Below are positions 629 through 29,762 of a DNA stretch of 64,000 nt, piece after piece. The notes beneath the pieces were generated by a model. That model did not search any database, was not told where the DNA came from, and was given only the letters and a program-made list of their open reading frames with translations. How positions within the stretch are numbered: the first letter of the stretch is position 1; every line of letters starts with the position of its first letter. The position numbers were made by a program, and so were the translations under genes. The DNA is taken from the NCBI RefSeq assembly GCF_021531815.1, contig NZ_JADYUM010000003.1, positions 1 to 64,000 of the forward strand. Reading direction: 5' to 3'. Source of the stretch: Pseudoflavonifractor phocaeensis. GTDB lineage: Bacteria; Bacillota; Clostridia; Oscillospirales; Oscillospiraceae.

Positions 629-1257
629 AGTGTAAAGCTTGCGGATACGAGGGAGAGACCTTTCCCCGTACCCCCATGGGAAAATACTGCTGCCCCCAAT
701 GCGGGGCAGGAAAAGAGGAGGCGGTCGGCCAGCCGGTGGACCAAAGCGTGGCGGATTACGCCGCCATGCTGGAAAAGCTGGCGACAGCGCCGGTGGAGGT
801 CACAAGATATGAGGACACCCAAGAGTTTGCCCGTCTGGATGCCTGGGGAAGGAAAAACGCGGCCTTTTTGAACCAGTTTAACGTGGAGGAGATCTCCGAA
901 GCCCTTTGGGCTGACAAAAAATACTACCGCCCGGAGGGATGGTCCGACCAGCTGTGGCGGCAGGACATCCTGCGCTGTATGCAAACACGGTACCAATACA
1001 GCGGTCCATACAACCTATACAGCCGCCAGGTGGACGAGAACGATCGGGGCTTTGAGGTTCTCTACGCCGCAGGGGGCGTGATGGAATTTCGCCTGAGAAT
1101 GAAAAATACGGGGTTTGGTTTAAACGATGGGCGCTGGCACACCTATTATGTGCCCTGCCGCTTTATCGACGGGGATGTGCGCCCCCTGATGGATGGCTGC
1201 AGGATGAAGCCCTCGGGCCTGCTGAAGACAGAGAAAATCTATCGGTTTAAGGGTTAA
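625..1257 (+). CDS. zinc-ribbon protein of the cluster at 1-6344
   Basis: 210 residues. An N-terminal zinc ribbon has two CxxC knuckles (MKCKACGYEG and YCCPQCGAG). A helical segment follows, then a C-terminal region that includes DGDVRPLMDGCRMKPSGL. The same phrase (GDIRPMMDGFTYKEKGL) occurs near the C-terminus of the protein at 2277-3245, so the two share a C-terminal domain as well as a zinc ribbon. No enzyme motif is visible. It overlaps the upstream membrane gene and is followed 14 bases later by a paralogous zinc-ribbon gene. Confidence 0.7.
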   Translation: MKCKACGYEGETFPRTPMGKYCCPQCGAGKEEAVGQPVDQSVADYAAMLEKLATAPVEVTRYEDTQEFARLDAWGRKNAAFLNQFNVEEISEALWADKKYYRPEGWSDQLWRQDILRCMQTRYQYSGPYNLYSRQVDENDRGFEVLYAAGGVMEFRLRMKNTGFGLNDGRWHTYYVPCRFIDGDVRPLMDGCRMKPSGLLKTEKIYRFKG

Positions 1258-1271
1258 AGGAGAGAGTGTAA

Positions 1272-2258
1272 ATGGAAAAATTACAGTGCAGTGTGTGCGG
1301 CGGCGCCCTGGTGATGAGCGATGACGGTGAAAAAGCCATCTGCGAAAGCTGCGGCATGAGCTTCAAAAAGGAAACTGTCAAGAAAATGATCATGGAGCTG
1401 TCCGGCCCGGTAAAGGTGGAGGGCATACAGAACAGCGACTCTCTGGCCGACCGGGCGGAGACCTTCCTGCGCATGGGAGAGACGGGAAAGGCCCAGGCCG
1501 CTTTCCGGCAGATGGCTGACGAGTATCCCGCCGATTACCGGGGCTGGTGGGGCCTGACCCGTACCATGGACTGGGAGAAACACTTCTACGATGGCGGACT
1601 GGACGAAGCGGCTATGCCGCAGGCGTGCCAGCGGGCGCTGGACTTCGCGCCGGAGGAAACAAAAGGGGAGATCCGGGCCTATTTCGAGGAGCGTGTGCGC
1701 ACCGTCAAGCCGGGGACGGATGAGAAACTGCGGCAGGAAGCCGCAGAGCGGGCGGAACAGGAGGCCGCAAAACGGGCAGAACAGGCACAGCAGGAGGCCA
1801 GGCAGCAGAAGATTGCCCTCTACCAGCAGGCAGTGAAGCAGGCCACCGCCCGGGAGGAAGAAGCCCGGCAGCGGGTGAATGATCTTTCCCACAGTATTTC
1901 GTATCTGCCAGGTCTGATCAAGGACGAGAAAAAACTGTTTGCCAACAATAAGCGAGACGGCGACCGCCGCCCTGTTACCATGGGCAACATCATCGCGCTG
2001 GTTTTCGGCGGTTGGCTCACCTTTGCCGCATGGATAGAGTTTCATCCCATCGGAACGCCTGTTGTTACGCTGTTGGGGCTTGGTCTGCCTCTGCTGTTCC
2101 TGTTTCGCCGTTTGAACCGGACAAAGAGCCATTTCGACCGCGCCGGGGAACTGGAGCGGCAGTTGAAGCAGGCGCAGCAGGAGCTGCCCGAAGCCCGGAA
2201 AGCGCTGGAAGAAGCCACAGCGGCCCGGCGGGCCGTTCAGGATGCCAGACCTGAGTGA
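1272..2258 (+). CDS. zinc-ribbon, coiled-coil membrane protein
   Basis: 328 residues. The N-terminal ribbon has two CxxC pairs (CSVCGGALV and CESCGMSF), the TFIIB-type layout, followed by KKETVKKMIMELSGPVKVEG. A TPR-like helical segment comes next, then a long Ala/Glu/Gln-rich coiled coil (about 145-205), a hydrophobic stretch near 237-275 that reads as one or two membrane segments, and a second coiled coil. The first 50 residues are nearly identical in pattern to the next gene's product, so the pair arose by duplication. Role unknown; probably a membrane-anchored partner of the ATPase at 3258-5867. Confidence 0.7.
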   Translation: MEKLQCSVCGGALVMSDDGEKAICESCGMSFKKETVKKMIMELSGPVKVEGIQNSDSLADRAETFLRMGETGKAQAAFRQMADEYPADYRGWWGLTRTMDWEKHFYDGGLDEAAMPQACQRALDFAPEETKGEIRAYFEERVRTVKPGTDEKLRQEAAERAEQEAAKRAEQAQQEARQQKIALYQQAVKQATAREEEARQRVNDLSHSISYLPGLIKDEKKLFANNKRDGDRRPVTMGNIIALVFGGWLTFAAWIEFHPIGTPVVTLLGLGLPLLFLFRRLNRTKSHFDRAGELERQLKQAQQELPEARKALEEATAARRAVQDARPE

Positions 2259-2276
2259 TAATGGAGGAAGATACAT

Positions 2277-3245
2277 ATGAAAAAATTACAATGTGAGATC
2301 TGCGGCGGAGCGCTGGTCATGCAGGACGGAATGGCCGTGTGCGAGAGCTGCGGCATGAAGTTTTCTAAAGAAGAAGTTAAGAAAATGGTGGTGGAGCTGT
2401 CCGGCCCCATCCAGATCGACGGCGAGGTCAAGGTCACCGGCATAGAGGACGCCGACGCTCTCTACCGGCGGGCCAAAGACTTCGAGCGCATTGGAGAATT
2501 AGAAGATGCGTATGATACCTACGAGGATGCCGCAGATAAATATCCCGGAGATGGCAGAATGTGGCTTGGTAAGGCAACTGTCCAGGTGAAGATCAACCTG
2601 GGAAAATGCGAAAAGGAACTTAAAGAAACTGATGATAATCATTATGATGATTATCGGCTCCGGTGGTCTTTTGAGAAATTGGAGTGGTGCGATGAAATAG
2701 AAAAATACTATGAGCGGGCACAATCTCTCGGGGGCGTTGACGATGAAGCGCAGCAGGGTCTGCTGTGGTTCCGGAATCAAAAGGAAACGATCATCCAGAA
2801 GTACAAGGACAAGAAAAGGAAGCGTGACATATATCGTGACACATTTGACTATTGGAAAAAAGCCAATGCAGAATTTCTGAATACCTTTCCCGGTTCTAAG
2901 GTTAAGGAGGAAATATTAGCCTTTCTCCTGAAGCAGGATGTGAGTGAGGTCTGCAAAGCGCTCAAGAAAACCTATTTGCATTACAGCAGTTACCATATTA
3001 AATCTTTTATAGATGCTCAGGGTCGTAGTATCTCGTTTAGATATTGGTATTATAATGACGTTTATAAATCTTACCCTACTATAGTTGGAAAGATTGATCT
3101 TCCGGAAGGCATGACCATTGAAGGCGATATCCGTCCCATGATGGACGGCTTCACCTATAAGGAAAAGGGCCTGTTCGGTGGTAAGAAGACATATTCTTAC
3201 GCCAACGACCCTGACAAGGACAAAGGCCCCACATTTGACGAGTAA
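2277..3245 (+). CDS. zinc-ribbon protein, paralogue of the preceding gene
   Basis: 322 residues. It begins KLQCEICGGALVMQDGM and CESCGMKFSKEEVKK, matching the N-terminus of the 1272-2258 product almost position for position. A tetratricopeptide-like middle follows (ADALYRRAKDFERIGELEDAY). The C-terminal region shares the GDIRPMMDGFTYKEKGLFG phrase with the 625-1257 protein. It thus looks like a mosaic of the two upstream genes without the membrane segments. Base composition falls noticeably in the middle (about 2500-3120), which may mark an exchanged segment. Function unknown. Confidence 0.7.
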   Translation: MKKLQCEICGGALVMQDGMAVCESCGMKFSKEEVKKMVVELSGPIQIDGEVKVTGIEDADALYRRAKDFERIGELEDAYDTYEDAADKYPGDGRMWLGKATVQVKINLGKCEKELKETDDNHYDDYRLRWSFEKLEWCDEIEKYYERAQSLGGVDDEAQQGLLWFRNQKETIIQKYKDKKRKRDIYRDTFDYWKKANAEFLNTFPGSKVKEEILAFLLKQDVSEVCKALKKTYLHYSSYHIKSFIDAQGRSISFRYWYYNDVYKSYPTIVGKIDLPEGMTIEGDIRPMMDGFTYKEKGLFGGKKTYSYANDPDKDKGPTFDE

Positions 3246-3257
3246 GGAGGCGGCGGT

Positions 3258-5867
3258 ATGCCCCTGTTTCAAGGAACCGAGCTGGAGGACGGCCGCTATC
3301 TGGGGCTGACCGTCCGGGAGGTGACGGCCCTGCCCCATGTGGATGTGTTCGGCCCGGACACCGGGCGGATGGGGGAGATCTTTGAAGGTCTGCTGGGGGA
3401 TCTGGCCCGGCTGTGCGGGGAGTCCGCGGCGCTGGAACTTCTCTGGCTGTCCCAGCCGGTGAGCGGCCAGAAGTTCCCCGCCCGGGCGCGGCTGTTCCTG
3501 CTGCTGCGGAAGCTGTCCGCCACGGCACAGCAGGCAGAGCGGGAGATGGACGCCTTCCTGTCCGCCATGGAGGCGGTGCTCACCCAGAAGGGCTGCTCCC
3601 TGTCCGGGGGAGAGCCGTTGACGGGTCTTCTGGAACAGGCGGAGGGACAGCTCCGCGCTCTTGTGCGGCAGGAGAAGGTGCCCATGAGCTTCTTCGCCCA
3701 GTTTCCCTATTACCACTATGACACCTGGCAGGGCTGCGCGGTGGACTTCGCATCCCTTCTGACGGCCCTGTGCGGCGCGCCGGGTGGGGCGCTGTCCGTG
3801 CAGGTCATCCCTGCGGCCCTGTCCCCGGAGGAACAGTTCGCCGCCGAGCAGATGCGCCAGATGCTTGCCCAGGCGGTCAGCGGAATGCCCGGGCAAACCC
3901 CCGCCATGGGGGACGACACCGCCCGCAGGCCGCTGGAAACCTACACCTATTACGCCCAGGACAGCGGCCCCCGGTTGCTGCTGAACCTGCTGGTGGGCGG
4001 GCCGCCCGCCGCCTGTGCCGCCCTGCTGGCCCGGGTCCAGAGCGCCCTGCGGGGGGTGTCCTTGACAGATACCGACCTGACGGGAGCCTTTTCCCTGGGG
4101 CGGGACCTGCTGTTCTCCCCCTGGAACATCAGCAGCGCTCTCATCTACCAGTACCGGGACGGGGCGCTGTGGCAGAATTTGCAGGGCATGGAGGCTCTCA
4201 TGCGGCTGCCGTACCTCTACACGGAGGGGGAGACGGCGAAGCTGCTGCAGATCCCCGTGGATGACGGCAGCCTGCCCGGCATCGTCAGTAACCGTGTGGA
4301 CCTGTCCGGGGCACTGTTTGACAAGGCGGTTCTGGCAGAGGACAATATCGTCTTCGGCCACCTGGCGGGAGATGAGCGGGTGCGCATCGGCGCGCCGTTG
4401 AAAGCCTTCACCCGCCACGGCCTCATCGTGGGCACCCCCGGCACCGGCAAGACCACCTTCTCCGTGGATATGCTTTTGCAGTTCTATGAGAAGGGCATCC
4501 CCTTCCTGGCCATCGAGCCGACGAAAACCGAGTACCGGGCCATGATCGACGCCATCCCGGATCTGCAGATCTTCACCCCCGGCAACAGCGGCGTGTCGCC
4601 CTTCCTCTGCAATCCCTTCCTGCCGCCCCGGAACATCACGGTGGAGAAGTACATCCCCAGTCTGGTCAGTGCTTTCCAGGCGGCGTTTTCCATGCCCTCG
4701 CCCCTGGATATGATCTTCCTGTCCGCCGTCCGGGCGGCCTATACGAAATACGGCTGGAAGAACAGCAGCAGGGCAGGGGACCCGGATGTACAGCCCTTCG
4801 GCCTATATGAGTTCATCCTCTGCTTCAAGGAGCTGGTGGCCAACTCCGGGTACAGCGGCGAGGTGCGGAGCAACCTCCAGTCCGGCGGCACCCTGCGGCT
4901 GATGAACCTGCTGGAGCAGAACGCCAGTATCTACGATACCATCCACACCATCCCGCTGGATGACCTGCTGTCCAAGCCCACGGTGCTGGAGCTGAACGCC
5001 ATCGAGAATCAGGAGCAGAAAGCGCTGCTCATGGCCCTGCTGCTGATCTCCGTCTGCACCCACACCAAGCAGAACCAAAAGGGCGACGGAGAGCTGAAAA
5101 ACATCATCCTCATCGACGAGGCCCATGTGCTGCTGGGGGGCAAGTCCCGCGCCGATGGGGCGGGCGGGCAGGACACCACGGTGCGGGCTCTGCAGAATAT
5201 GATCGCGGAGATCCGCTCCTACGGCACCGGCATCCTCATCGCCGACCAGTCTCCCACGGCGGTCAGCCGTCCCATTGTGGCCAATACGGACATCAAGGTG
5301 TCCTTCCGTCTGGTGCAGGGGGAGGAGAAGGCGGCTCTGGCGGACAGTACCGGCATGGAGGAGACCCAGCGGCAGCATCTGGGCCGTCTGGGCGTGGGCG
5401 AGGCCTTCGTCTACTACAGCCGCCTGGACGCGCCCCAGTTGGTGAAGACCACCGACAGCCGGGCGGCCAAGGGTATCCGCCTGTCTGTCCCCGACGGGGA
5501 GATCGCCGGACGCATGACCTATTGGACGAATCATGGGGATCTGCTCAAGCCCTGCCGGGAATGCGGCCTCTGCCCCCAGTGCGCCGGCGGCTGCGATCTT
5601 GTGCTCCGGGACCGGGCGGACTACTACGCCGCCCGGGTGCTGCAGGAAAACGGCGTCAAAATGAAGGACCGCAGCACCGCGGCACAGTATGCGATCCTGC
5701 TGCACAAGCCCCTGGCCCTCTGGGAGGGGACGCCGGGAGCGGACTTTGAAAGGCTGTGCTTCTGCGCCCGTCTGCGGCTGCTGCGAAAGATTGCATTGGA
5801 AAAAGCCTTTGTATTTACCCCGCGGGAGATGGAGACCATTCTGCTCCCTCGGGAGAAGGGAGAATAA
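3258..5867 (+). CDS. HerA/DUF87-type P-loop ATPase
   Basis: 869 residues. A long N-terminal region without a clear motif leads into a RecA-like motor: Walker A VGTPGTGKTTF near residue 392, the typical IEPTKTEYR stretch after it, Walker B NIILIDEAHVLLGG near 615, and a downstream GTGILIADQSPTAVSR motif. This order is that of HerA/VirB4/FtsK-family helicase-translocases (DUF87). A C-terminal cysteine cluster (CRECGLCPQCAGGC, near 765-778) is an extra zinc site. The start ATG follows GGAGGCGG. It is the only evident motor in the cluster and is followed within 3 bases by the acidic gene. Substrate unknown; DNA translocation is inferred from the family. Confidence 0.75.
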   Translation: MPLFQGTELEDGRYLGLTVREVTALPHVDVFGPDTGRMGEIFEGLLGDLARLCGESAALELLWLSQPVSGQKFPARARLFLLLRKLSATAQQAEREMDAFLSAMEAVLTQKGCSLSGGEPLTGLLEQAEGQLRALVRQEKVPMSFFAQFPYYHYDTWQGCAVDFASLLTALCGAPGGALSVQVIPAALSPEEQFAAEQMRQMLAQAVSGMPGQTPAMGDDTARRPLETYTYYAQDSGPRLLLNLLVGGPPAACAALLARVQSALRGVSLTDTDLTGAFSLGRDLLFSPWNISSALIYQYRDGALWQNLQGMEALMRLPYLYTEGETAKLLQIPVDDGSLPGIVSNRVDLSGALFDKAVLAEDNIVFGHLAGDERVRIGAPLKAFTRHGLIVGTPGTGKTTFSVDMLLQFYEKGIPFLAIEPTKTEYRAMIDAIPDLQIFTPGNSGVSPFLCNPFLPPRNITVEKYIPSLVSAFQAAFSMPSPLDMIFLSAVRAAYTKYGWKNSSRAGDPDVQPFGLYEFILCFKELVANSGYSGEVRSNLQSGGTLRLMNLLEQNASIYDTIHTIPLDDLLSKPTVLELNAIENQEQKALLMALLLISVCTHTKQNQKGDGELKNIILIDEAHVLLGGKSRADGAGGQDTTVRALQNMIAEIRSYGTGILIADQSPTAVSRPIVANTDIKVSFRLVQGEEKAALADSTGMEETQRQHLGRLGVGEAFVYYSRLDAPQLVKTTDSRAAKGIRLSVPDGEIAGRMTYWTNHGDLLKPCRECGLCPQCAGGCDLVLRDRADYYAARVLQENGVKMKDRSTAAQYAILLHKPLALWEGTPGADFERLCFCARLRLLRKIALEKAFVFTPREMETILLPREKGE

Positions 5868-6411: not shown

Positions 6412-6573
6412 TCAGCAGCTCTTGCTTGTCCCATTCCATCTTGTACGCTTTGTTTCGCCGAAGCGCTGGAAGTGGACGATCTCCCGCTCCCGCAGGAAGC
6501 GGATGACGTTGTTCACGTCCGGGTCGTCGGACAGGCGGAGGATATTGTCGTAGGTCTTTCGTGCCTTCTGTTC
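6412..6573 (-). pseudogene. cotJC: cotJC 3' part, separated from its 5' part by the island
   Basis: Read on the minus strand, codons from 6573 down give EQKARKTYDNILRLSDDPD and then FLREREIVHFQRFGE, the conserved C-terminal part of the CotJC/manganese-catalase family. There is no start codon of its own. The missing first 130-odd codons are at 35018-35443. After FGE the frame reads TKRTRWNGTSKSC, whereas the next frame reads KQSVQDGMG, closer to the family's usual tail (VQD.L). A small frameshift near 6455 is therefore possible in addition to the split. Confidence 0.85.
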
Positions 6574-6598
6574 TGCTGCGACCTTGTAAGGACAACAT
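6572..6598. other. attL: cotJC / island junction
   Basis: Bases 6572-6573 (TC; GA on the minus strand) are the apparent crossover dinucleotide. The island arm is 6574-6598. Its reverse complement matches the 25-base arm at 35009-35033 at 20 of 25 positions. The two arms plus GA rebuild a 52-bp imperfect palindrome of the size and form of a large-serine-recombinase attP. Outside lies cotJC sequence. Confidence 0.8.
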
Positions 6599-6718
6599 CT
6601 GATTTCTGGGCCGTATCTTTTCGATATGCTTGATTTTGTGCTATAATAATCCCAAAGCAAGAAGTTTGTCAATGAAGAACGACAGTTTGATCAATCTATC
6701 ATAAAGGAGGGTCTTATT

Positions 6719-6843: not shown

Positions 6844-6872
6844 TTGAGATTTTTGCAGCTGAATCGTATAAT
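6844..6872 (+). promoter_or_regulatory. sigma-A-type promoter of the 6908-10794 operon
   Basis: TTGAGA (6844-6849), 17-base spacer, TATAAT (6867-6872). An AAAAGGAGGA ribosome site for the 6908 gene follows about 20 bases later. Confidence 0.7.
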
Positions 6873-6907: not shown

Positions 6908-7603
6908 ATGCCCATACAATACGATAAAAATACGGTTCTTGAAATGTGCGATGAAGCGATGAAAAATCCAGCTTTGTTCTATGCGCAGAATCTTGTCAAT
7001 TATCAGGGCATCTGTCCGGACGCGCAGGTTCCCTACACAGAGATCATCGCGAAGTATTTGATCGAGCATCTTGCGGAATTTACGGATGGGATTCCTAAAA
7101 TCCGGCGAAGCGCTTCCTATCGCACATCTACACACAAGGGAGAGTTCGATCCGAACTCTAATCGTATTGAGGAACTCACGGCAATGAAGATGTTTAACCT
7201 TTGCCAAACGGGTGAGCGATATGCGAAGGTTGGAAAAATTCTTGATTACCAAGTTCCACTGAAAAACAAGCAGAGCGATCAGGCTGGAAAGATCGATCTT
7301 CTTGCCTACGACGGCAGCATCCTGCGCGTTCTTGAATTGAAGAAGCCGGACACGCAGGAAACGATGCTCCGCTGCGTTTTGGAGGGTTATACCTATTTGC
7401 GCACAGTAGACACGGTGAAATTGACTGAGGATTTCAATATTCCGGCAAATACTCCCGTAAAGGCAAGCCCGTTTGTGTTTGAAAATAGCTTGCCCCATCA
7501 AGAATATCTGGATCAACGTCCGAACTTAAAAAAGCTGATGGGTCTGCTGGACAGCGAGCCGTTCTTTATCCGTGAAGTTTCGGGAGGATACGAAGTTTTT
7601 TAA
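6908..7603 (+). CDS. PD-(D/E)XK-type nuclease-like protein
   Basis: 231 residues. The core reads QAGKIDLLAYDG, about ten residues of strand, then VLELKKPDTQETMLRC. That is the D...(E/D)xK arrangement of PD-(D/E)XK phosphodiesterases, with likely catalytic D130, E143 and K145 and an upstream Glu at 88/89. The RCVLEGYTYL helix after the motif also fits this fold. It has its own promoter and a strong AAAAGGAGGA site. Many such proteins are DNA nucleases of defence systems, but some are inactive or act on RNA. It is the first gene of the candidate system and is separated by 74 bases from the rest, so it might be transcribed separately. Confidence 0.6.
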   Translation: MPIQYDKNTVLEMCDEAMKNPALFYAQNLVNYQGICPDAQVPYTEIIAKYLIEHLAEFTDGIPKIRRSASYRTSTHKGEFDPNSNRIEELTAMKMFNLCQTGERYAKVGKILDYQVPLKNKQSDQAGKIDLLAYDGSILRVLELKKPDTQETMLRCVLEGYTYLRTVDTVKLTEDFNIPANTPVKASPFVFENSLPHQEYLDQRPNLKKLMGLLDSEPFFIREVSGGYEVF

Positions 7604-7677
7604 TTTTCAAAATCAAACAACCACCCTGCTGTCGCGGCGGTTTGCTATACTGTCCTCAAAAACAGGAGGATGGTTTT

Positions 7678-8010
7678 ATGGCAGAAGAACAATTCACACA
7701 GGGCAAAACCGTTCTGACGGGGGACGATGTGACCTGTCCGAACTGTGGCAGTCACAATGTGTACTGCGTTCCGTATCCAAAAGTAGAGTTTGGTATCTGG
7801 TTTTTTCTGTGGCTGATCGTTGTGTTCGGCGGTTATATGCTCTCAGTGCTTGTTGCGATAGTGGGTGTTGTTTTCTGGAGCGTTGCACTGGTGATCCGGC
7901 TGAAGCAGAACAAGCTGGCAAAGCAGTATCTCCGGATGCGGTGTGTCACCTGCGGGACAAACTTTGACGTGGCAAGAAGCGAACTCACAAAGGGAGACGG
8001 CAACAAATGA
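7678..8010 (+). CDS. zinc-ribbon membrane protein
   Basis: 110 residues from an ATG that sits 8 bases after AGGAGG (7663-7668). An in-frame upstream ATG at 7642 lacks a ribosome site. An N-terminal knuckle (CPNCGSHNVYC) is followed by two membrane segments (about 39-58 and 62-80) and a C-terminal CVTCG knuckle. Both metal-binding ends should therefore lie on the same side of the membrane and could close one zinc site. The stop overlaps the next ATG by four bases, indicating coupling. Function unknown. Confidence 0.65.
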   Translation: MAEEQFTQGKTVLTGDDVTCPNCGSHNVYCVPYPKVEFGIWFFLWLIVVFGGYMLSVLVAIVGVVFWSVALVIRLKQNKLAKQYLRMRCVTCGTNFDVARSELTKGDGNK

Positions 8011-8615
8011 GTCGGGACTATCGTATCAATACCTTCGGTCTGACCGAAGAACAGAATGCACTCGTGGAAGATAATATCCCGACACGGGACTATGAGGTTT
8101 TTGACACCGATGCGCCGACCGACCTGATCGCAATCAACTGTGAGGTACTGATCATCTATGCCCCGGAGATGGACCAGGATTCCATCGGCATGATCTTCGA
8201 TTACTATTCGCAGGTCAACGGCTGCACTGACGAAACCGTTATCTGGCTTGGAGAGCCCAAACCTCCAAAAGAGCTGCAAAAGTTTTTCAAATGCTACGAT
8301 TCCTTTGATGCGATCACGGACAAGCTCAAATATCTGCTGCTCACGGCACACAGCAAGAGTAAAAAGGCGCACGAATACAGTGAAAAGCTGGTAAACGGGC
8401 TGAAAATCCTCGCCTTGATCCGGAGTCATCCTGGCATCTCTACGCAGAAACTGGCTGAGCTGACCGAACTGCCGATGCGCAGTGTGCAGCGCTATATCGC
8501 GGCTTTGCAGGCAGCGGGGGAGTGGATCGAATATGACCGGATAATCAAAGGATGGAAGCTGTTTCACGGCATTTCTGCTCTGTTCGGAGAGGTTTGGGAC
8601 GGTGAATGGGATTGA
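8007..8615 (+). CDS. winged-helix regulator with a sensor-like N-terminal module
   Basis: 202 residues. The C-terminal part (about 131-190) is a helix-turn-helix with a wing: HPGISTQKLAELTELPMRSV, QRYIAALQAAGEW, then a basic hairpin. The first 120 residues form an alpha/beta module (GLTEEQNAL.., then FDTDAP.., CEVLIIYAPEMD.., ETVIWLGE) with the strand pattern of a receiver domain but no obvious phospho-acceptor site. The same module opens the protein encoded at 9793-10794. It overlaps the genes on both sides by 4 and 10 bases, so it is probably co-translated with the RNase J-like gene. Likely a DNA-binding controller of this operon. Confidence 0.6.
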   Translation: MSRDYRINTFGLTEEQNALVEDNIPTRDYEVFDTDAPTDLIAINCEVLIIYAPEMDQDSIGMIFDYYSQVNGCTDETVIWLGEPKPPKELQKFFKCYDSFDAITDKLKYLLLTAHSKSKKAHEYSEKLVNGLKILALIRSHPGISTQKLAELTELPMRSVQRYIAALQAAGEWIEYDRIIKGWKLFHGISALFGEVWDGEWD

Positions 8616-9796
8616 AAATCTGCATTTACAGAGGTACGCATCAGATCGGTGGCATCGCCGCAGAAATTTCCACGGAGAAAACGCGTATCCTTATTGACAT
8701 GGGCGATGAGTTGTCAGTTGATCCTGATTTTGTTCCTGCACCGTTGAATATCCCTGGTGTCACGGATACAAACGGGCACTGCGATGCGGTGCTGTTCACA
8801 CACTATCACGGCGACCATATCGGGCAGATGGCGCGCATCCGGCCAGAGATCCCGCTTTATGCCGGAGCGTTGGCAAGGGACATCATGCTCCTGTCTGCAC
8901 AGCACAGCAACCGGACAGACGAACCGCTTTTTCGCCGTATGGATAGCATCCGCACCTTTTCGCCCGGTGAAGCTTTCTCTGTCGGCGATATTCGAATCAC
9001 GCCCTATTCTATCGACCATTCCGCCTGCGACAGCTATATGTTCCTGCTGGAGGCAGATGGAAAGCGCATCCTCTATACCGGCGATTTCCGGCTGCATGGT
9101 GTTCGCGGCAAGGCAATGCCCAGGATACTGGATAAGCTGGTGGGCAAGGTAGATGCCATCATTACGGAGGGAACATCGGTTTCCCGGCCCAGCGGTGCAG
9201 TTCCACGGGAGTGGGACTTACAGGCGCAGATCAAGGACTATCTGAAAAAATATAAATACGTCTTCGTCTTATGTGCAAGTACCAATCTTGACCGGATTTT
9301 TGCCTTTGCAAGGGTTGTACCAAGGGGGAAATATTGCATCTGTGACAAATATCAGTATACCCTTGCAGAGACTGTTTCCCGTCATTGGAAGCGTTATTCT
9401 TCTTTTTATGAAATACCGAAGCTGACTTGGTTTCAATACAAGCCCGCTGCTGGTTTTCAGGAACGCGGCGGTCTGATGTTCGTCCGGGCAAACCGGCAGT
9501 TTGAAACCATCATCCGGCAGTTTGATCCGACGCAAAGTATTCTGCTCTACTCCATGTGGGACGGCTACCGTACCAAACCCGGCAGTAATCTCCCGGCGTT
9601 TCTTGCACTGACCGGCACATGGGAAGCGCTGCATACCAGCGGCCATGCGTTGCCGGAAGATATTCGGCTTATAATCGACAAGGCAGACCCGGAACTGGTG
9701 ATTCCAATGCACACGGACGCCCCGCAGCAGATGCAGAATATTTGCCCAAATCGTAAGGTTGTGCTTTTAAACGACGGAGAGGAGCTGAGACTGTGA
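8606..9796 (+). CDS. RNase J-like MBL/beta-CASP hydrolase
   Basis: 396 residues. The metallo-beta-lactamase core is complete: H66, H68, D70 and H71 in FTHYHGDHIGQ, H138 in YSIDHSACD and D160 in YTGDFRLHG. A beta-CASP region follows, with the HTSGHA motif (344-349) and the closing VIPMHT (H369). This order is that of RNase J, CPSF-73 and related RNases/DNases. At 396 residues it is shorter than housekeeping RNase J (about 550), because the C-terminal domain is missing. All visible metal ligands are present, so I expect an active nuclease. It overlaps its neighbours by 10 and 4 bases. Endo- versus exonuclease activity and RNA versus DNA cannot be told from the sequence. Confidence 0.75.
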   Translation: MGLKICIYRGTHQIGGIAAEISTEKTRILIDMGDELSVDPDFVPAPLNIPGVTDTNGHCDAVLFTHYHGDHIGQMARIRPEIPLYAGALARDIMLLSAQHSNRTDEPLFRRMDSIRTFSPGEAFSVGDIRITPYSIDHSACDSYMFLLEADGKRILYTGDFRLHGVRGKAMPRILDKLVGKVDAIITEGTSVSRPSGAVPREWDLQAQIKDYLKKYKYVFVLCASTNLDRIFAFARVVPRGKYCICDKYQYTLAETVSRHWKRYSSFYEIPKLTWFQYKPAAGFQERGGLMFVRANRQFETIIRQFDPTQSILLYSMWDGYRTKPGSNLPAFLALTGTWEALHTSGHALPEDIRLIIDKADPELVIPMHTDAPQQMQNICPNRKVVLLNDGEELRL

Positions 9797-10794
9797 CGAA
9801 CGATGTATATACCATAGGCCTCACACGTACAGAGCATCAGACATTGAAAGTTCTGCTTCCGATCACATTTCCCGTTATCCCATATGACACAGAGCAGCTC
9901 AACGAAACTGAGATCAAAAGAATCACTGGACAGGCACGCTGCATCGTGCTGAATCCCAAGCATCTTGATGCGGCGATTCTTGCGGAGTTTTTTTACGATC
10001 AGGACTACCTGTGCAATCACGGCCAACCGGTTCCGGTGATACTGCTGTCTGACCATCTGACCCGCGAGCAGCAGCACACAGTCCCCGCTCCAGAGTATCT
10101 TTCGGTAATCGACCTCCATAAACGAATTGACCGTAACAGAAGTTTTGCAGTCAAAACATTGCGCGAAGCGTCACTTCCGTGCTGGCAGAACCGGGTGGCA
10201 ATGCGCAGTAATATGTTCAATGACGGATGGTATCTCATCGACATTGAAACCACTGGTGTTGAAGTCTGGGAGGACAGCATCATCTGTATCCGCCTTGCAT
10301 ATATGGCAAATTATAAAATTGTAGGCCAGCCGCAAACAATTTATATTCGCCAATCAAAGCCGCTGCCGGACGGAATTTCAAGAATAACCGGCATCATCGA
10401 TGAAATGCTGGCGCAGGGCATATCGCTGGAAGAGGCAGTGGGACAGCTTGAAGGGCTTTCGCACAGCAATACACCTTTTGTCTTTACATCAGAGGAGTTC
10501 ACAGCAGGTTTCCTGAAAGCGGCTTTCCTGCGCTGCGGCAAATCTTTCATACGCCCATATATCGCCATTGATAAGCTGGCGGCCATTCCATTCGGCTACC
10601 TGATGCAGCGTCGTGCGCTGAATATTCCATCGCTGATAGATCCCAGCCCATCCAGCAATCTGTTTTTTGACGATCAGCTTCAGGAACTTTATGAATTGAC
10701 AAAGTGTGTCTTTGAAAACCTTGGTATCCGGTATGACGTTCGTTGTCCCGGGCAGTTTGATAAGCTGTATGCGGCAGAACTCTGCGAAGTCTGA
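9793..10794 (+). CDS. DnaQ-like (DEDD) protein with the shared sensor-like module
   Basis: 333 residues. Residues 1-120 resemble the N-terminus of the 8007-8615 product: GLTRTEHQTL against GLTEEQNAL, CIVLNPKHLDAA against CEVLIIYAPEMDQD, and FFYDQD against FDYYSQ. The C-terminal half is DEDD-exonuclease-like: WYLIDIETTG (D150, E152), ITGI at 198-201 and YIAIDKLAAI near 256. The usual Asp of motif II is not evident around FTSEEFTAGF, and the motif III His appears replaced (N289...D294). It may therefore be a weak or inactive exonuclease. It starts by a four-base overlap with the MBL gene and ends the operon at a strong terminator. Confidence 0.65.
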   Translation: MTNDVYTIGLTRTEHQTLKVLLPITFPVIPYDTEQLNETEIKRITGQARCIVLNPKHLDAAILAEFFYDQDYLCNHGQPVPVILLSDHLTREQQHTVPAPEYLSVIDLHKRIDRNRSFAVKTLREASLPCWQNRVAMRSNMFNDGWYLIDIETTGVEVWEDSIICIRLAYMANYKIVGQPQTIYIRQSKPLPDGISRITGIIDEMLAQGISLEEAVGQLEGLSHSNTPFVFTSEEFTAGFLKAAFLRCGKSFIRPYIAIDKLAAIPFGYLMQRRALNIPSLIDPSPSSNLFFDDQLQELYELTKCVFENLGIRYDVRCPGQFDKLYAAELCEV

Positions 10795-10805
10795 CACGTG
10801 AAAGC

Positions 10806-10843
10806 AAAGAAGGAAGCAAGCTTTTTCGCTTGCTTCCTTCTTT
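10806..10843. terminator. bidirectional terminator
   Basis: A perfect 16-bp stem (10806-10821 / 10828-10843) with a six-base loop ends in A- and T-rich tracts. It separates the convergent nuclease operon and serine recombinase gene. Confidence 0.85.
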
Positions 10844-10848
10844 CTGTA

Positions 10849-12405
10849 TCAGAAGTTCCAGTGAATCTCAATAGGTACCTCATGGGTTCCAGGAATTCGT
10901 TTCCCGACACTTATGTAGTCGATCAGGATTTCCACCATCTCACGGGTCAGATGCTCCACGTTGGTGTAGCGCTGAATCAGTTCCTTGCGCTGATCACCGG
11001 CCAGCATCTGCGCCTCTAACTCTTCCAGCCGGTGGTCCGCCTCTTTGATCTGCTGTTCCATGCGCTCACGGTCTGCTGCAAAGCTATCTGCCATAGAGAT
11101 ATAATCCTCTTCGCTGACGATGCCTTTGACCTTATCCATATACAGGGTGCGCAGGTAAGCCCGGTTATCTTCAAGCTGCTTCTGTAGCTTAGCCTTGGAT
11201 TCTATCCAATTTGCTTTTTGCTGCTCCAGGTTCTGACTGAATTGGACATTGCGCTCCAGCTCATCCTGATCCAAATAGGTGCGGGAGAGGGCGTTCAACT
11301 CCTGAATCACCATTTTCTCCAGTTTCTCCACGGGGATGAAGGCACCGATGCAGGCGTCCTTTGACACATGACGGTTCGAACAGATCAAGTAGTGTCTTCC
11401 ATGATTTTTCGAAGACCTCATCGTATATCCGCAGTTTGCGCAACGCGCCTTCCGGGCAAAAAGCCCAATGCTGCCCACATCAAACGGTTTGGCGCGGGAT
11501 GCCACCATTGCCTGTACCCGATCCCATAGGTCACGTTCAATGATCGGCTCATGGGTTCCCTCAACACGATACCACGTTTCCTTGGGGCGGGGCTTATTCT
11601 GCTTGGTTTTATAAGAAATGCTGCCGTATTTGCCCTGGACCATGTTGCCGATATAAATCTCATTGACCAGCATATCCGAGATGGCAGAATACTTCCAGAG
11701 AGTACTGTTTTTTCGTTTCGGCTGCTGATAGCGCAGACCGTGTAATCGCTTGTACTCGGTCGGATTCGGAACGCCTCGGTCGTTGAGCGTCCGGGCAATG
11801 GCGGTTTTTCCATAGCCCTGAGAGAAGAGCGTAAATACCTCCCGGACAACGGCGGCGGCCTCTTCGTCAATAATCAGGTGGCCCTTTTGCTCCGGGTCCT
11901 TCTTGTATCCGTATAGGGCGAAGGCACCGATGTGAAATCCATTTTTCCGCCGGTTGGTCAGGACGCTGCGGATGTTTTCCGACATGTCCTCCAGATACCA
12001 CTCATTGACCAGGCCGTTGATCTGCCGGGACTTTTTGTTGCCCTTGTTGGCCGTATCCGCATTATCAACCAAGCTGACAAAGCGGATGCCCCAGATAGGG
12101 AAGAGGCCGTTGATGTATCGTTCCACCAGTTCCAGCTCACGGGTGAAGCGGGACTGGCTCTTGCATAGAATGATGTCAAACTTGCGGGCTTCGGCATCCT
12201 GCAAAAGGCGTACAAACTCAGGACGGTTTCGGTCAGAACCCGTGTAATTATCATCGCTGTAAATGTTATATACTTCCCAGCCATGCTCTATGGAATATTC
12301 CAAAAGCATGGCCTTTTGATTCTGGATGCTGTTGCTGTCATCCGTTTCGAATTTCTTATTGCGGTCCTCTTCAGACAGACGGCAATAGATCGCAACTTTT
12401 TCCAT
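10849..12405 (-). CDS. large serine recombinase (integrase)
   Basis: 518 residues. The N-terminal resolvase-type catalytic domain (YCRLSEEDRN, nucleophile S11; later CKSQSRFTRE and the NEWYLEDMSENIRSV hinge) is followed by the recombinase domain (YGKTAIARTLNDRGVPNPTE). Next come a zinc ribbon (CANCGYTMRSS...CSNRHVSKDAC) and a coiled coil (about 405-470). This is the full large-serine-integrase layout. It is the best candidate for the enzyme that inserted the island into cotJC, because the ends at 6573 and 35034 have the matching att form. The minus-strand ribosome site is AGGAGGC. Excision would need a directionality factor, perhaps the 16722-16940 product. Confidence 0.9.
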   Translation of the reverse strand: MEKVAIYCRLSEEDRNKKFETDDSNSIQNQKAMLLEYSIEHGWEVYNIYSDDNYTGSDRNRPEFVRLLQDAEARKFDIILCKSQSRFTRELELVERYINGLFPIWGIRFVSLVDNADTANKGNKKSRQINGLVNEWYLEDMSENIRSVLTNRRKNGFHIGAFALYGYKKDPEQKGHLIIDEEAAAVVREVFTLFSQGYGKTAIARTLNDRGVPNPTEYKRLHGLRYQQPKRKNSTLWKYSAISDMLVNEIYIGNMVQGKYGSISYKTKQNKPRPKETWYRVEGTHEPIIERDLWDRVQAMVASRAKPFDVGSIGLFARKARCANCGYTMRSSKNHGRHYLICSNRHVSKDACIGAFIPVEKLEKMVIQELNALSRTYLDQDELERNVQFSQNLEQQKANWIESKAKLQKQLEDNRAYLRTLYMDKVKGIVSEEDYISMADSFAADRERMEQQIKEADHRLEELEAQMLAGDQRKELIQRYTNVEHLTREMVEILIDYISVGKRIPGTHEVPIEIHWNF

Positions 12406-12431
12406 TCGGATTGCCTCCTATCTATAAAAAC

Positions 12432-12470
12432 ACCCGCTTTCATCACAGCTTGAGCGTGATGAAAGCGGGT
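12432..12470 (-). terminator. terminator/attenuator upstream of the recombinase
   Basis: A perfect 15-bp stem (12432-12446 / 12456-12470) is followed on the minus strand by a T-run (GTTTTTATAG). It lies between the 45-residue ORF and the recombinase start, so it should limit read-through into the recombinase. Confidence 0.7.
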
Positions 12471-12493
12471 CATGTATTGCACCGATATTCAGT

Positions 12494-12631
12494 TTATCGA
12501 GCGCCGGACAGGATCGCCTTGGAGCGTTCCAATTGATTGATCAGCTGGATCCAGACGCTTGTATAAGCCTGTACGGTTGTGCAGGTCTCACCGCTTTTAA
12601 AATAGCTCTTGCAGAGAACAGAGTCATTCAT
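12494..12631 (-). CDS. 45-residue protein upstream of the recombinase
   Basis: The minus-strand ATG at 12631 follows a strong AAGGAGG. The frame MNDSVLCKSYFKSGETCTTV..TSVWIQLINQLERSKAILSG ends 24 bases before the terminator. Two cysteines and an amphipathic helix are visible. Small proteins of this type often precede serine recombinases in Clostridia mobile elements, so it could be a regulator or directionality factor. That is inference. Confidence 0.55.
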   Translation of the reverse strand: MNDSVLCKSYFKSGETCTTVQAYTSVWIQLINQLERSKAILSGAR

Positions 12632-12727
12632 AAATCAATTCCTCCTTACTCAAATTTATGCTGGTATCCGGCAGGGCAGAAGTAAAATGAAGCGCCCTTT
12701 ATCGGGTGATTCTGCCGGTACGAAAAT

Positions 12728-13774
12728 TTACTCAGCGGGATCATCCGCAGGCGGAACAAATCCAATTGAAACCAACTGGGGAAGAGAGGGGAGGTAGGAA
12801 ATGCCCGCTCTGGCCTCGATGGTCACAGGGTTGATACCGATGCTGCGCAGCTGCTTGAGCCGCTTCTTGCCGTTTTTGAATTGGAGAATACTGTTCGTAT
12901 CCACTTTGGCGTGCCGGTTGATTTTTTCGAGGAACTCAATGAGCTTCCATTTTTTCGATGAAGAGAAGTCGGTATCCCTAAGGATCCGCTCCTTTGCCTT
13001 GGCCAGCGTATAGTACGGTGCATCAGGTACCAACCGCTGAAAAAGCCGCAGCATAATTTCTTCGCCGTGGCAGCACAAAGCATCCATCAGGAGATACCAG
13101 GGGCGGTACCGATCCAGAGAAAACTGCTGCAGCTGCTGGTCGATTCCCTGGGAAAACAAGGATGCCTCCAGCCGCAGAAGCGAAAAGGGATTATCCCAGG
13201 ATGTAGACAGGAGCTGATCGGTGATCTGATAGAGCTTGTCATAGACCGTCACCTGATACCGGTCATTCGCTCGCCGGAACGAATGGCTGGCGCGATGATC
13301 GGGGTAAGTCTCCGGCTTCCAACCTGTACAAGAGGCTCCTTTTTCCAGCAATCGGATGTACTCCAGGAGCACGGCATTATCCACAGGCGTATTTTTACAT
13401 AAATCCAAGCGGTTCAATTTGAAATCGTGGATCGTCTGGCTGATCGGCATTTCCTGGACAATCGCATCCAGGGCCTGTACAAGAGCTTCCATATTGCTGC
13501 TTGTCGGGGCGAATATCGCGATTGCTTCCATATTCCCCAGCAGCCTCGAGGGGTTCACGCGCAGGAGCATTTTTCTGCAATAACCGTTCGTGTGCTTCTG
13601 GATCGAGACCTGGACCCCATGCTCAGACCAGCGGTTATAGTAAAGAATACCGGTCGTTTTATTTTTGTAGCAATAATGATTTTGCCCGGCGGCAGAAAGG
13701 TAGAATGCATTTCTGCATGCGCGGGTCTCTTCGGGAGAAATGTTCACATAGATCTCAAAAGTATGCACGTTCAT
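12728..13774 (-). CDS. replication-initiator-like protein
   Basis: 348 residues. Features recalling rolling-circle or phage-type initiators are an IHDFKLNRLDLCKN strand pair, RYQVTVYDKLYQI, and LLRLEASLF (the R-(V/L)-E strand seen in Rep_trans/gene II-type proteins). No single catalytic Tyr can be assigned with confidence. A 570-base gene-free AT-rich stretch lies directly upstream, as expected for an origin. The ATG follows a GAGGTG site. It could instead be an unrelated island protein; I rate the Rep assignment as tentative. Confidence 0.4.
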   Translation of the reverse strand: MNVHTFEIYVNISPEETRACRNAFYLSAAGQNHYCYKNKTTGILYYNRWSEHGVQVSIQKHTNGYCRKMLLRVNPSRLLGNMEAIAIFAPTSSNMEALVQALDAIVQEMPISQTIHDFKLNRLDLCKNTPVDNAVLLEYIRLLEKGASCTGWKPETYPDHRASHSFRRANDRYQVTVYDKLYQITDQLLSTSWDNPFSLLRLEASLFSQGIDQQLQQFSLDRYRPWYLLMDALCCHGEEIMLRLFQRLVPDAPYYTLAKAKERILRDTDFSSSKKWKLIEFLEKINRHAKVDTNSILQFKNGKKRLKQLRSIGINPVTIEARAGISYLPSLPQLVSIGFVPPADDPAE

Positions 13775-14344
13775 AAAAACACCTCATTATTCAGAATGTT
13801 GGTCAGTGTATTTTTTTAGAATTCCGTACTGACCTTTCATGAAATTACCATCATGTTGGGGTGTAAATTTTTTTAAAACGGTTTTATATATGGTAATTTA
13901 TGTAAGTGCTATTTTTTCTGTATCATGTCTGTATTCATGATAAATCCATCCAATCATCTTGAAATAATTGGAACCTTATGCATATACTTAAATAGATGCT
14001 GCTGCCGCAATATCACACTAAAATAATATTACGTAGAAATTTCGGACGATCCGGAAAATGATCTTCGCACAGCGGAGCAGCTGAGGCTGACAGCCTGCAA
14101 GCATTTCTTTTCTATAGAGCTGTTGGCAGCGATATAAAAATAAAAACAGTGTTCGGCCAGGGGAACATACAGGCGGAAACCGACGGAAAAGAGCGGTTCA
14201 GGTGCCTGTCCCGGAGTCAGAAAGACGCCTCCAGAAGGATCTTCTGGAGGCTGTTTTTTTTAATCCCGGAAACAAAAGTTTAGCGTTTGCATATTGATTT
14301 ATTTTAATTAAAGTGGTATTTAGTGTATAAGGGGGTGCGGCTGT
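13775..14344. other. gene-free AT-rich region, possible origin
   Basis: About 570 bases with no convincing ORF on either strand. It has A/T-rich tracts near 13860-13930 and 14020-14040 and ends in the terminator at 14227-14259. It sits between the divergent Rep-like gene and the 791-residue gene, so it must hold both promoters and, if the Rep call is right, an origin. I see no iteron array by eye. Confidence 0.35.
14227..14259 (+). terminator. rho-independent terminator
   Basis: An 11-bp perfect stem (GCCTCCAGAAG / CTTCTGGAGGC) with a three-base loop is followed by TGTTTTTTTT. There is no gene immediately upstream on this strand. It may end a small untranslated RNA transcribed through 13900-14220. 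Confidence 0.7.
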
Positions 14345-16720
14345 ATGAGGACTTTTCTGGATCGGGAGCAGGTCGTCGATCTGATCTGTGAGCAGCAGGA
14401 ACGGCTGTATTCGGTGATGGATGCGCGTCTGGATGACCGCGCACAGGAGACGCTTTTTCAGCAGAGCTTCCGGTGTTCGCTGGCGCCGGTTGAGAAGGGA
14501 CGGATCGAAATTCATCTGCTTTTTCTGCGCTGTGTATTCGTTCCGGATGAATTGCCTGATCCGAAGCGGTTCCGGTTCTCGGTCCTTGATGTATCCTGGA
14601 TGGCCAGCCAGAACATTCGTTTCCTAAAGAAAATCGAGCAGCAAGGGGAGATGCAAACGAGTCCTGAAGCTGACGCGATCTCCTTCCGGACGATCATCAA
14701 ACGCGATGCACAGGCAAAGAAAAATTTCAAGAAATGGAGCGGCAGCATCCGCAAAATGATTCAGAAAGTGGTTCGGAGCAAACTGATAGAAAACCCGCAA
14801 CGGATTGCGGAAATCATCACAAGAGATGCTTTCTGGGACTGCATCATCTCCCAAACCGGCCTTCATCCGGCCTACAATGATCAGGGCTATATGGACCAGG
14901 AGCTTGTTGCCCAGGAGCTTTTGGTGGATTGGCAGGGGAAAGTGGTGGGCAGAGATGTGCCGCGCCATCCGTTGGGGTGGGATCTGCGAAAACTCTGCCA
15001 GGGCTTTTCCAGATATCTGGTGCTTCCCCAGCTGCGGGAACGGTTTATGTGGCAGTTCATTCCCGAGGGAGAACGGCAAAAGCTGAACCACATGGCGACC
15101 GCTCCCTGGCATATTGGCTGGTATGAGCTGAACGGGATTCCGGTCATGTCCGGTATCCGCTCCGCGGAGACACGGCCTTCCGGCTACGGAAGCGCATTGC
15201 TGCGGGATTTATCCCAGCCCAACCGGTTGGAAGACTTATTGTCGGTGGCTCCCTATGAGATCACGGTCCCTCTTTTGTGCTATGGGATATTCTCCGTCAT
15301 CAAACCGTTTCTGCCGGATTACCCAGCCAGAATTTCGGTGAATGATTCTTTTTCCAGCGTCATGAAACGACAGAAGGAAATGATATTCCTGTCACTCACC
15401 GGCCCTCATTCCCAAGCCCTCGCTAATTTGTTTTATGGTGCTTTTGTGGACTACGGAGAAGGGGAGAGAGCGGGCGAAAAGGAAGCGAAGAAAAGACTTC
15501 GCCAGCTCCAGAGCAGGGTACATGATGGCGTTGTCATCCTGGATGAGGAGTTTAAAAATTTACAGACATTCCGGAACCGGGCAATGCTCCGGGACGCCTG
15601 TATCGTGCTGACCAATTCCGCCTTTGAAGAAAACCAGTTTGAGATCCGTCTCAGTTCCGATGCATTTGACCCGCAGTGTTGCTCACCGGCCATGCAGCAG
15701 GTATTCCCAAGGGTTCTGATCGCGTTCGTTGATTGGTTCTGGGAGGAATATGTATGGCGACGGGAAGAAAAGGTTCAGGAAGCCCTGGGTTGTATCGCGG
15801 GCCAGGCCCATAAGCTCTATCAACGCTGGCGGCAATTATTTGCCGGAGAGAAAGAGTCCCAGATACCGAATAAACTGCGCAGACTTTCTGACAGTCCGGC
15901 AGGGAACTGGAGCGAATTAAACGATGTAATCAAGCTTTACACCGATCAACTGGAAGAAATTATTGAAAAAGATGCAGGTGATCAGCGTTGTAATACACGC
16001 AAAAAAGAAGCGGCATTGAAGTGGGTCTCCGATTTTTCCAAACAGGCAAGGGAGGAGGCAAAGGAGTACCGGCTGACAGCCGATACGTCCTTTGCAAATG
16101 ATTTTTTCCACTTTAGCAGCATCCGAAAGCAATATTCCCGAAAATGGGCCAACCTGCAAATCGCCCTCTGCGTGTTCCTGAAATTCAGGGAAACCCATTC
16201 GGAATACGCCCGGATCTCGCTTCCGGAACCGTGGGAGGCGTATTTGCAGGAAGGATCAAAAGTATCGGAGAAGACGTATGAACAACTCTTTTTTGGTTAT
16301 TTATCTCAGGAATTGGAAGCGGGACGGGTAATCTCATTCCGCACATACCGTACTGCTGACTGCTCGGGCTGGTATGACGGAGCAAAAGAGTTGTTCTATC
16401 TACCATATCCCGATTACTACAGTGACTTCCGGAACTGGGCCACGGAGCAGGGCTGGATGGACTTGCCCAGTCAGCGCGTTTTTCAGAAACAATTGGCAGA
16501 GAAAGGATTTCTGCTGCTTGCGGACAACCACAGCAAAAGCGGCTACAAGCGGGCCGATCACCGAATGGTCGTAGATCCTTATTCGGATACCAAACCGAAG
16601 GTCAGTGTGATCAAAGTCCGGCCCGATCTTACGGAGCTAAGTGTAGCGGCGCAGTCGATCATACAGAAATTAGGAGCTCAAAAGGTTCCGCGCCGCCGGG
16701 ATGCTCTGAAGGAGAAATAG
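14345..16720 (+). CDS. large island protein, unknown function
   Basis: 791 residues starting after a GGGGG-type ribosome site. No signal peptide, P-loop or zinc ribbon is visible. The middle carries charged helical stretches (for example YGEGERAGEKEAKKRLRQLQ). The last 150 residues look like a winged or DNA-binding end (YYSDFRNWATEQGWMDLPSQ, RVFQKQLAEKGFLL), a pattern seen at the C-terminus of phage and plasmid replication proteins. It lies beside the Rep-like gene and overlaps nothing. A replication or partition role is plausible but unproven. Confidence 0.55.
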   Translation: MRTFLDREQVVDLICEQQERLYSVMDARLDDRAQETLFQQSFRCSLAPVEKGRIEIHLLFLRCVFVPDELPDPKRFRFSVLDVSWMASQNIRFLKKIEQQGEMQTSPEADAISFRTIIKRDAQAKKNFKKWSGSIRKMIQKVVRSKLIENPQRIAEIITRDAFWDCIISQTGLHPAYNDQGYMDQELVAQELLVDWQGKVVGRDVPRHPLGWDLRKLCQGFSRYLVLPQLRERFMWQFIPEGERQKLNHMATAPWHIGWYELNGIPVMSGIRSAETRPSGYGSALLRDLSQPNRLEDLLSVAPYEITVPLLCYGIFSVIKPFLPDYPARISVNDSFSSVMKRQKEMIFLSLTGPHSQALANLFYGAFVDYGEGERAGEKEAKKRLRQLQSRVHDGVVILDEEFKNLQTFRNRAMLRDACIVLTNSAFEENQFEIRLSSDAFDPQCCSPAMQQVFPRVLIAFVDWFWEEYVWRREEKVQEALGCIAGQAHKLYQRWRQLFAGEKESQIPNKLRRLSDSPAGNWSELNDVIKLYTDQLEEIIEKDAGDQRCNTRKKEAALKWVSDFSKQAREEAKEYRLTADTSFANDFFHFSSIRKQYSRKWANLQIALCVFLKFRETHSEYARISLPEPWEAYLQEGSKVSEKTYEQLFFGYLSQELEAGRVISFRTYRTADCSGWYDGAKELFYLPYPDYYSDFRNWATEQGWMDLPSQRVFQKQLAEKGFLLLADNHSKSGYKRADHRMVVDPYSDTKPKVSVIKVRPDLTELSVAAQSIIQKLGAQKVPRRRDALKEK

Positions 16721-16721
16721 C

Positions 16722-16940: not shown

Positions 16941-17186
16941 AAAATCTCCCTTCAATTTTTTGGCGTTGTGCCTTACATAGTTGTTATCCCTTCTGATCCC
17001 ATTTTGCGTTATTCCGTCCCGGTCAACCGTATATTATTAACATGATAAAGAGTCAGAACCCGTAATTTTTCGACGATTGCGGACTCTGGCTCTTTTCCTG
17101 TTTTGCAGAGAAAACGGCGGTATTTTGACTCTGTAAACTGCAAATTTGGACGGAAATGATAAAAATCAGGAAGGGAGAGAAACCAT

Positions 17187-17270: not shown

Positions 17271-17312
17271 CTGCCGCGAGGGAAAAGAAGGGACGAGATA
17301 ACCAATGACAAA

Positions 17313-20791: not shown

Positions 20792-20854
20792 AGGAAAAAG
20801 ATACTCCAAAAAGTCACGAAATATGTTACAATGGCCCTGCGAGGTGAGAAAACG

Positions 20855-29738: not shown

Positions 29739-29762
29739 TATCTGAGAAAGGAGTTCTCTCAA

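Follow-up and report, generated by a model that had tools for sequence, protein, structure and literature searches.

Positions 6,908 to 10,794 of a 64,000-nucleotide stretch of Pseudoflavonifractor phocaeensis DNA (GCF_021531815.1, NZ_JADYUM010000003.1, positions 1-64,000, forward strand; hereafter the window) contain five genes, P1 to P5, which an earlier note had put forward as an undescribed nuclease system. All five open reading frames (ORFs) are present where that note had placed them (Table 1), and the last four overlap as it described, by 4 nucleotides (nt) at P2/P3, 10 nt at P3/P4, and 4 nt at P4/P5. P2 is given here from its ATG start at 7678; its longest ORF begins at a TTG at 7642. 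The idea of a recurrent nuclease module on a mobile island held, with a change in what recurs: judged from sequence, the recurrent core is a P4-type metallo-beta-lactamase (MBL)/beta-CASP protein together with a PD-(D/E)XK-type protein, here P1, and not the set P2 to P5. P1 had been set apart from the four-gene unit, and within the window it does stand as a unit of its own, yet together with P4 it makes up the recurrent core.

Table 1. Features of the P1 to P5 locus, in window coordinates
Feature	Coordinates	Strand	Basis
Promoter-like site TTGAGA-17-TATAAT	6844..6872	+	11/12 matches; ends 35 nt upstream of P1
P1, PD-(D/E)XK-type partner protein, 231 amino acids (aa), replaceable cassette	6908..7603	+	D130, E143, K145, E159 invariant, 10 sequences
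P2, Zn-ribbon protein with hydrophobic (transmembrane-like) hairpin, 110 aa, accessory	7678..8010	+	ORF, Pfam
P3, degenerate receiver-like domain and winged-helix helix-turn-helix (HTH), 202 aa	8007..8615	+	Predicted model
P4, EF2904-type MBL/beta-CASP protein, 396 aa	8606..9796	+	Motifs, structure match
P5, N-terminal region of unknown relationship and degenerate PolC-type DEDDh domain	9793..10794	+	Alignment
16-bp terminator-like hairpin closing the unit	10806..10843	+	Folding versus shuffles

We collected 53 MBL loci, near-copies included and the duplicates L057 and L091 dropped, from related genomes, a scan of genome contigs, one viral contig (found by a P3 search), samples of the phylum and the class, and plasmids. 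From the relatives' genomes only seven, with matches at E ≤ 1.7e-13, were followed, weaker matches being taken as RNase J-like; eight of the 10 plasmid records were fetched, with H10 and H14 left out. By profile search, 40 of the 53 loci have a partner-family gene on the MBL strand within 700 nt, or fused to the MBL gene. Four more (L029, L031, L045, and L064) carry the partner 958-1010 nt away behind other genes, which brings the total to 44, and in L023 a partner-profile match lies 2.5 kb from the MBL gene on the opposite strand. The eight loci without a partner comprise four with broken MBL frames (L026, L027, L094, and L095), two at a contig end (L099 and L103), L044, and L109. Over all loci, the partner profiles match 46 of 1675 ORFs, 45 of them on the MBL strand within ~1 kb or fused.

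At one locus (L025) MBL and partner form a single chain of 772 aa, in which residues 4-431 match the MBL profile (1.9e-90) and residues 466-729 the partner profile (3e-23, in the search of 1675 ORFs), with EVK retained in the partner part. Of all the evidence, this predicted fusion points most strongly to the two proteins forming a physical complex. Matches free of training overlap are found at nine loci: L024 (weakly), L025, L108, and L110-L115. Profiles built without the plasmid loci match seven of 200 ORFs in the eight plasmid loci, one each in seven of the eight, and all of these lie beside the MBL gene. A control set made up of the window and 12 weaker loci with MBL proteins of RNase J-like length yielded one match among 263 ORFs, the window's own P1, which is a training sequence; the 12 weaker loci have no partner-family match in ~1 kb of flank and nine neighbor ORFs seen. 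For the reverse search, a P1-family profile (A3) built from MBL-neighboring genes was run against samples of 245 and 358 genomes, and five of the six non-self genes recovered, none of them in A3, adjoin an MBL gene (L059, L061, L062, L063, and L118). Loose motif counting gave 28 of 31 loci, and 35 of 76 operon genes versus 24 of 230 other genes; since the loose motif has ~10% false positives, the profiles were relied on instead. It is very probable that P4 and its partner act together.

The overlapping genes fare differently from the pair. P2 to P5 had been expected to co-occur as a set; among 60 loci searched, all four are found together only on the Oscillibacter contigs L029 and L031, and we rejected them as a recurrent unit. 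The earlier note had added that its proposal would fall if the genes failed to co-occur elsewhere, or if the set matched a named system or a housekeeping operon. Overall neither is what we found, with two qualifications: the P2 to P5 set recurs on just these two contigs, and in Elusimicrobiales the pair holds a fixed place (see below).

The partners belong to several families. Clustering of 43 proteins by BLAST (four of which, L023div, L073, L075, and L076, are not MBL neighbors) gives groups of 19, 12, 5, 2, and 2 together with three singletons. Faint profile links connect the groups; the 12-member profile, for example, matches P1 at 9.4e-5. When partner family is mapped as a label on a 31-row maximum-likelihood tree of the MBL proteins, it changes at least 10 times (least possible, four; average of shuffled labels, 12.2). 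The MBL proteins of the window and of L029 are 95% identical, yet the two loci carry partners of different families in one and the same position, bounded on both sides by sequence that matches (window 6455-6673, and 7621 onward); the partner in L045 is of a third kind. By this comparison P1 is a swapped cassette. The upstream flank at 6412-6672 (minus strand) looks like the terminal part of a gene for a CotJC-type manganese catalase, and L029 and L045 share part of this flank at 75%-80% identity.

The P4 family has kept every one of MBL motifs 1-4 and beta-CASP motifs A-C. Among 20 aligned sequences, D31, H66, H68, D70, H71, H138, D160, E188, H347, and H369 are invariant; their assignment to the motif positions is our assumption. 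The closest solved structure to the P4 profile is EF2904 (PDB 2AZ4; E = 6.8e-35), aligned over profile positions 3-374 of 392, and by this near full-length similarity P4 is classed as EF2904-type. RNase J proteins are the next-best solved relatives (PDB chain 7pcr, 4.4e-26). Against the RNase J model TIGR00649, which has 546 positions and a curated cut-off of 400 bits, P4 scores only 62.4 bits (2.7e-17), and we rejected its identification as RNase J; P4 is also shorter and has different gene partners. The host genome contains a separate RNase J-like gene of 555 aa (G000:C2).

P1 matches no Pfam model, and a relative in L063 matches PDDEXK_9 at 1.6e-4, under the cut-off of that model. Of its four invariant residues, D130, E143, and K145 correspond to the D-(x)n-ExK core; the fourth is E159. 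The AlphaFold2 model of P1, which is confident (pLDDT 85.5), has weak Foldseek matches to Can2, Card1, FokI, McrBC, and cap-snatching endonucleases, as well as to unrelated folds; the best is Can2 at E = 0.015, and none reaches E ≤ 0.001.

The accessory genes are distributed more sparsely. In the 60 loci searched, relatives of P2 are confined to L029, L031, and L045, and relatives of P5 to L029, L031, L024, L095, and L047. P3 has strongly scoring relatives at 11 of the 53 MBL loci, including L047, which was itself found with P3; L023 and L024 have only weak HTH matches. P3 also lies beside a shortened cluster-A partner without an intact MBL gene in L074 (4.8e-13), and without either an intact MBL gene or a profile-supported partner in L073 and L077. 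A gene beside P3 in L073 that had been read by eye as PD-(D/E)XK matches no partner profile and was discarded.

The predicted model of P3 combines a receiver-like domain with a following winged HTH, and all six of its PDB matches at E ≤ 0.001 are response regulators (best 3e-4, TM-score 0.41). Its fold thus resembles that of response regulators such as StyR (1YIO), from which P3 differs in the missing phospho-acceptor: Among 17 relatives we find neither a conserved Asp at the end of beta-3 nor the acidic pair, at positions that we take to be required in a receiver. For this reason P3 was rejected as a two-component regulator, and the winged-helix regulator of the earlier note becomes a predicted pseudo-receiver winged HTH protein. 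A lone P3-like receiver domain is seen beside proteins that by eye are PHP/PolC-like and WYL-like in L075 (7258-13713) and L076 (7618-12365), neither of which has an MBL-profile match.

The C-terminal half of P5 is a PolC-type exonuclease domain that has Thr in place of the motif II Asp and no longer has the aligned motif III His; both residues are lost in all six copies aligned to the PolC of the genome (window, L029, L031, L024, L047, and L095). P5 had been counted among the nuclease parts; it lacks the full set of four acidic residues plus His, so that an active DEDDh exonuclease was rejected and P5 is unlikely to be a nuclease. At L109 a gene annotated as an exonuclease, close to the MBL gene but on the opposite strand and outside these six, looks intact by eye. 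In plasmids, tblastn with P5 finds seven records, none covering 80% of the protein, and these are generic exonuclease matches where annotated. Nor could we sustain the sensor-like module said to be common to P3 and P5 (hhalign probability 1.6; hmmsearch E = 3.7 among 970 proteins); a visible resemblance remains, unproven. Short PolC-like proteins with PHP and pol III alpha parts are encoded inside the operon in L041 (8332-10830) and L092 (4225-6495), and near it in L047 (1703-4075). What we take to be the polymerase Asp triad is damaged in L041 and kept in L092 and L047.

Several further proteins accompany the pair. In L022 (1270-1965), L097 (6571-7248), and L098 (8602-9279) a protein of 225-231 aa with an N terminus that is hydrophobic by eye stands between partner and MBL, possibly another membrane part. 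Small proteins with a GIFW motif adjoin the MBL gene on alphaproteobacterial plasmids (L112, 4519-4995; L114, 4558-4953; L115, 6256-6630). Metallophosphatase genes overlap the MBL stop by 4 nt in L109 (6455-7024) and L113 (6227-6871), and phosphatase-like genes are also seen by eye near the MBL gene in L024, L025, and L092.

At the edges of the window operon, P1 had been credited with a promoter of its own. A matching site is indeed there (Table 1), but a scan of the region finds seven promoter-like sites where 5.1 are expected, and since this is not above chance the site alone is no evidence. The strong terminator fares better: The hairpin after P5 is a perfect 16 bp, and the folding energy of the 58-nt stretch is -27.7 kcal/mol (z = -5.3), a stability equaled by none of 200 shuffles, although the hairpin at 10806-10843 is missing from the output of a simple terminator scan. 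In line with the mobile island proposed before, a large serine recombinase gene (10849-12405, opposite strand; phrog_95, 2.2e-102) adjoins the operon, and 7621-17781 is 92% identical to the Oscillibacter valericigenes contig L029, the match ending abruptly at 7621.

Elsewhere in the window (625-5867), an 869-aa HerA/CedD-like ATPase of unknown function, absent from the 60 related loci searched, comes after three small proteins whose weak matches are to Zn-ribbon or TPR domains. Downstream of the operon are an amidoligase-like protein beside a class II glutamine amidotransferase-like protein (17338-19454), a protein kinase-like protein matching the PD-T4-6 and MkoA models (20831-22291), a 1099-aa superfamily 1 (UvrD-like) helicase-related protein (25886-29185, minus strand), and Cas9 and Cas1 of a type II CRISPR system (29730-33969), ~19 kb from the operon.

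The MBL family is rare, occurring in nine of 398 genomes of the phylum sample and 14 of 391 of the class sample (own genome included), and it is carried on 10 plasmid records from Bacillota, Bacteroidota, and Pseudomonadota. Scans of viral contigs recovered one contig with P3 and none with P4 or P5. Genes of a defense type are found among the neighbors of the pair: a CRISPR array of 57 repeats in L061, a SIR2-nSTAND protein in L042, a DNA methyltransferase in L040, two DUF262 proteins in L109, and an Eco57I-type methylase with a GIY-YIG nuclease in L112.

We put at about an even chance the full reading of these data, a two-part nuclease with a defensive role. In its favor we count the close linkage with its one fusion, the invariant catalytic residues, the repeated change of partner, the rarity of the family, its carriage on plasmids, and the defense-type neighbors. 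The MBL/beta-CASP protein and its PD-(D/E)XK partner would form one complex, in which the partner recognizes foreign or aberrant nucleic acid, makes the first cut on it, or both, and the beta-CASP subunit digests it starting at its ends; exchange of the partner would re-aim a constant degrading subunit. P3 may be a DNA-binding regulator that acts locally, with a receiver-like domain sensing a signal independently of phosphorylation; P2 may serve as a tether or sensor at the membrane; and P5, as a dead PolC-type exonuclease, could attach noncatalytically to 3′ ends or to the replisome. The likeliest purpose would be to defend the cell, or its mobile element, from phages or competing elements, and a role against phages is plausible. 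More tentatively, the pair may define a new form of bipartite nuclease immunity, rare yet phylogenetically widespread, in which interchangeable PD-(D/E)XK proteins aim a constant EF2904-type degrading subunit, a pseudo-receiver regulator does the gating, and, in some lineages, PolC-derived proteins that are dead at their exonuclease sites provide a link to replication.

Several observations weigh against a defensive two-part nuclease. The MBL family has no match in 50,697 phage records at E 1e-15, and a close link to phage genomes was rejected on that ground. The defense-type neighbors were noticed without a count against background, and islands and plasmids carry non-defense cargo too. The PD-(D/E)XK fold of P1 is weakly supported by its model. 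The linkage is not complete: L044 and L109 carry an MBL gene with no recognized partner, in L124 a P1-like gene stands without an MBL gene, and L077, which was found with P3 and is not one of the 53, shows two MBL pieces but lacks a partner match. Most partner profiles, moreover, were trained on loci in which they were counted. As for partner exchange, shuffled labels give as few changes in 11 of 200 cases, so that the labels are somewhat clustered, and family A is clustered (seven changes versus 10.5, equally low in eight of 500 shuffles); partner type therefore follows the MBL tree in part only. With L025 unlabeled, the tree variant gives 13 changes, a count as low in 28 of 200 shuffles, and for family A in two of 500. 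Finally, in six of the seven Elusimicrobiales loci the pair lies downstream of what by eye is a MutY-like gene (L034, L036, L037, L038, L040, and L043; in L040 a methyltransferase and another gene on the opposite strand lie between), and this shared place suggests vertical inheritance and a resident role.

That placement is one of the points in favor of a resident module for DNA repair or linked to replication, in which the beta-CASP protein would act like SNM1/Artemis on DNA ends, the PD-(D/E)XK protein would incise damage, and PolC-like proteins would mark forks. The PolC-like proteins in or near the operon at three loci, two of them with the Asp triad at its presumed positions, fit such a module, as does the resemblance of P5 and its L024 and L095 relatives to a PolC-type exonuclease. 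A presence in 2%-4% of genomes, repeated partner change, and carriage on plasmids and islands would be unusual for repair genes, however, and the exonuclease is degenerate in every aligned copy; we consider this explanation unlikely. An accessory role in RNA processing or turnover, with P4 as a short RNase J-like enzyme for particular cellular RNAs and the partner as its specificity factor, would follow from RNase J being the nearest family of known function, but the low model score and short length of P4, the second RNase J-like gene in the genome, and the weaker loci of RNase J-like length, partnerless in the ~1 kb of flank and nine neighbor ORFs seen, all speak against it, and partner change would be hard to account for; we think this quite improbable. 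A toxin-antitoxin or addiction module that stabilizes mobile elements, with one toxic nuclease held by the other protein and P3 as autorepressor, would suit the short, often overlapping genes, the HTH regulator at about a fifth of the loci (11 of 53), and the plasmid records, but is very unlikely given catalytic motifs retained in both proteins, the oddity of a toxin-antitoxin fusion in L025, and the fixed chromosomal place in Elusimicrobiales.

The module of MBL and PD-(D/E)XK proteins is apparently unnamed, as the earlier note had suspected of its five-gene set. In PADLOC-DB 2023, which does not hold later systems, the model set of no named anti-phage system is matched; the matches are partial or generic (LmuA, 1.5e-4, P4 residues 21-77; DEDDh, 7e-10, P5; WYL, 1.7e-5, P3 HTH). 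No description of the pairing was found in searches of open-license papers, an absence that is weak evidence. Relatives of EF2904, entered in public records as "MBL fold metallo-hydrolase," are now tied to a recurring nuclease-type partner, and EF2904-type function thereby becomes testable. If the role is defensive, the design would be of a plug-in kind, with the recognition nuclease swapped and the degrading nuclease constant; PolC-type exonuclease domains, too, appear to be reused in catalytically dead form.

Among known proteins, P4 is most like EF2904 of Enterococcus faecalis, a beta-CASP protein of unknown function whose structure is listed in the literature as that of a hypothetical protein; like P4, it has the MBL and beta-CASP domains and lacks distinct modules for RNA binding (PMC3095777). 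RNase J has the MBL and beta-CASP motifs in common with P4 and differs in the features already given. Cas14 of type VII CRISPR is likewise a beta-CASP effector (P4 NCBIfam E = 0.0026), but P4 scores 16 bits against a cut-off of 800, and the only Cas genes seen in the window are the distant Cas9 and Cas1. The CRISPR ancillary nucleases Can2 and Card1 are among the top, though weak, structural matches of P1, in which no CARF-type domain is seen. No protease family in Pfam matches P1 to P5, and in this the module differs from the MBL nuclease-protease pairs of Hachiman, AVAST, Lamassu, and DRT, where a trypsin-like protease activates the nuclease (PMC12799240); the partner here is PD-(D/E)XK-type. 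In those pairs too, an MBL-type nuclease is linked to another gene and swapped between systems; we regard them as the nearest published analogy.

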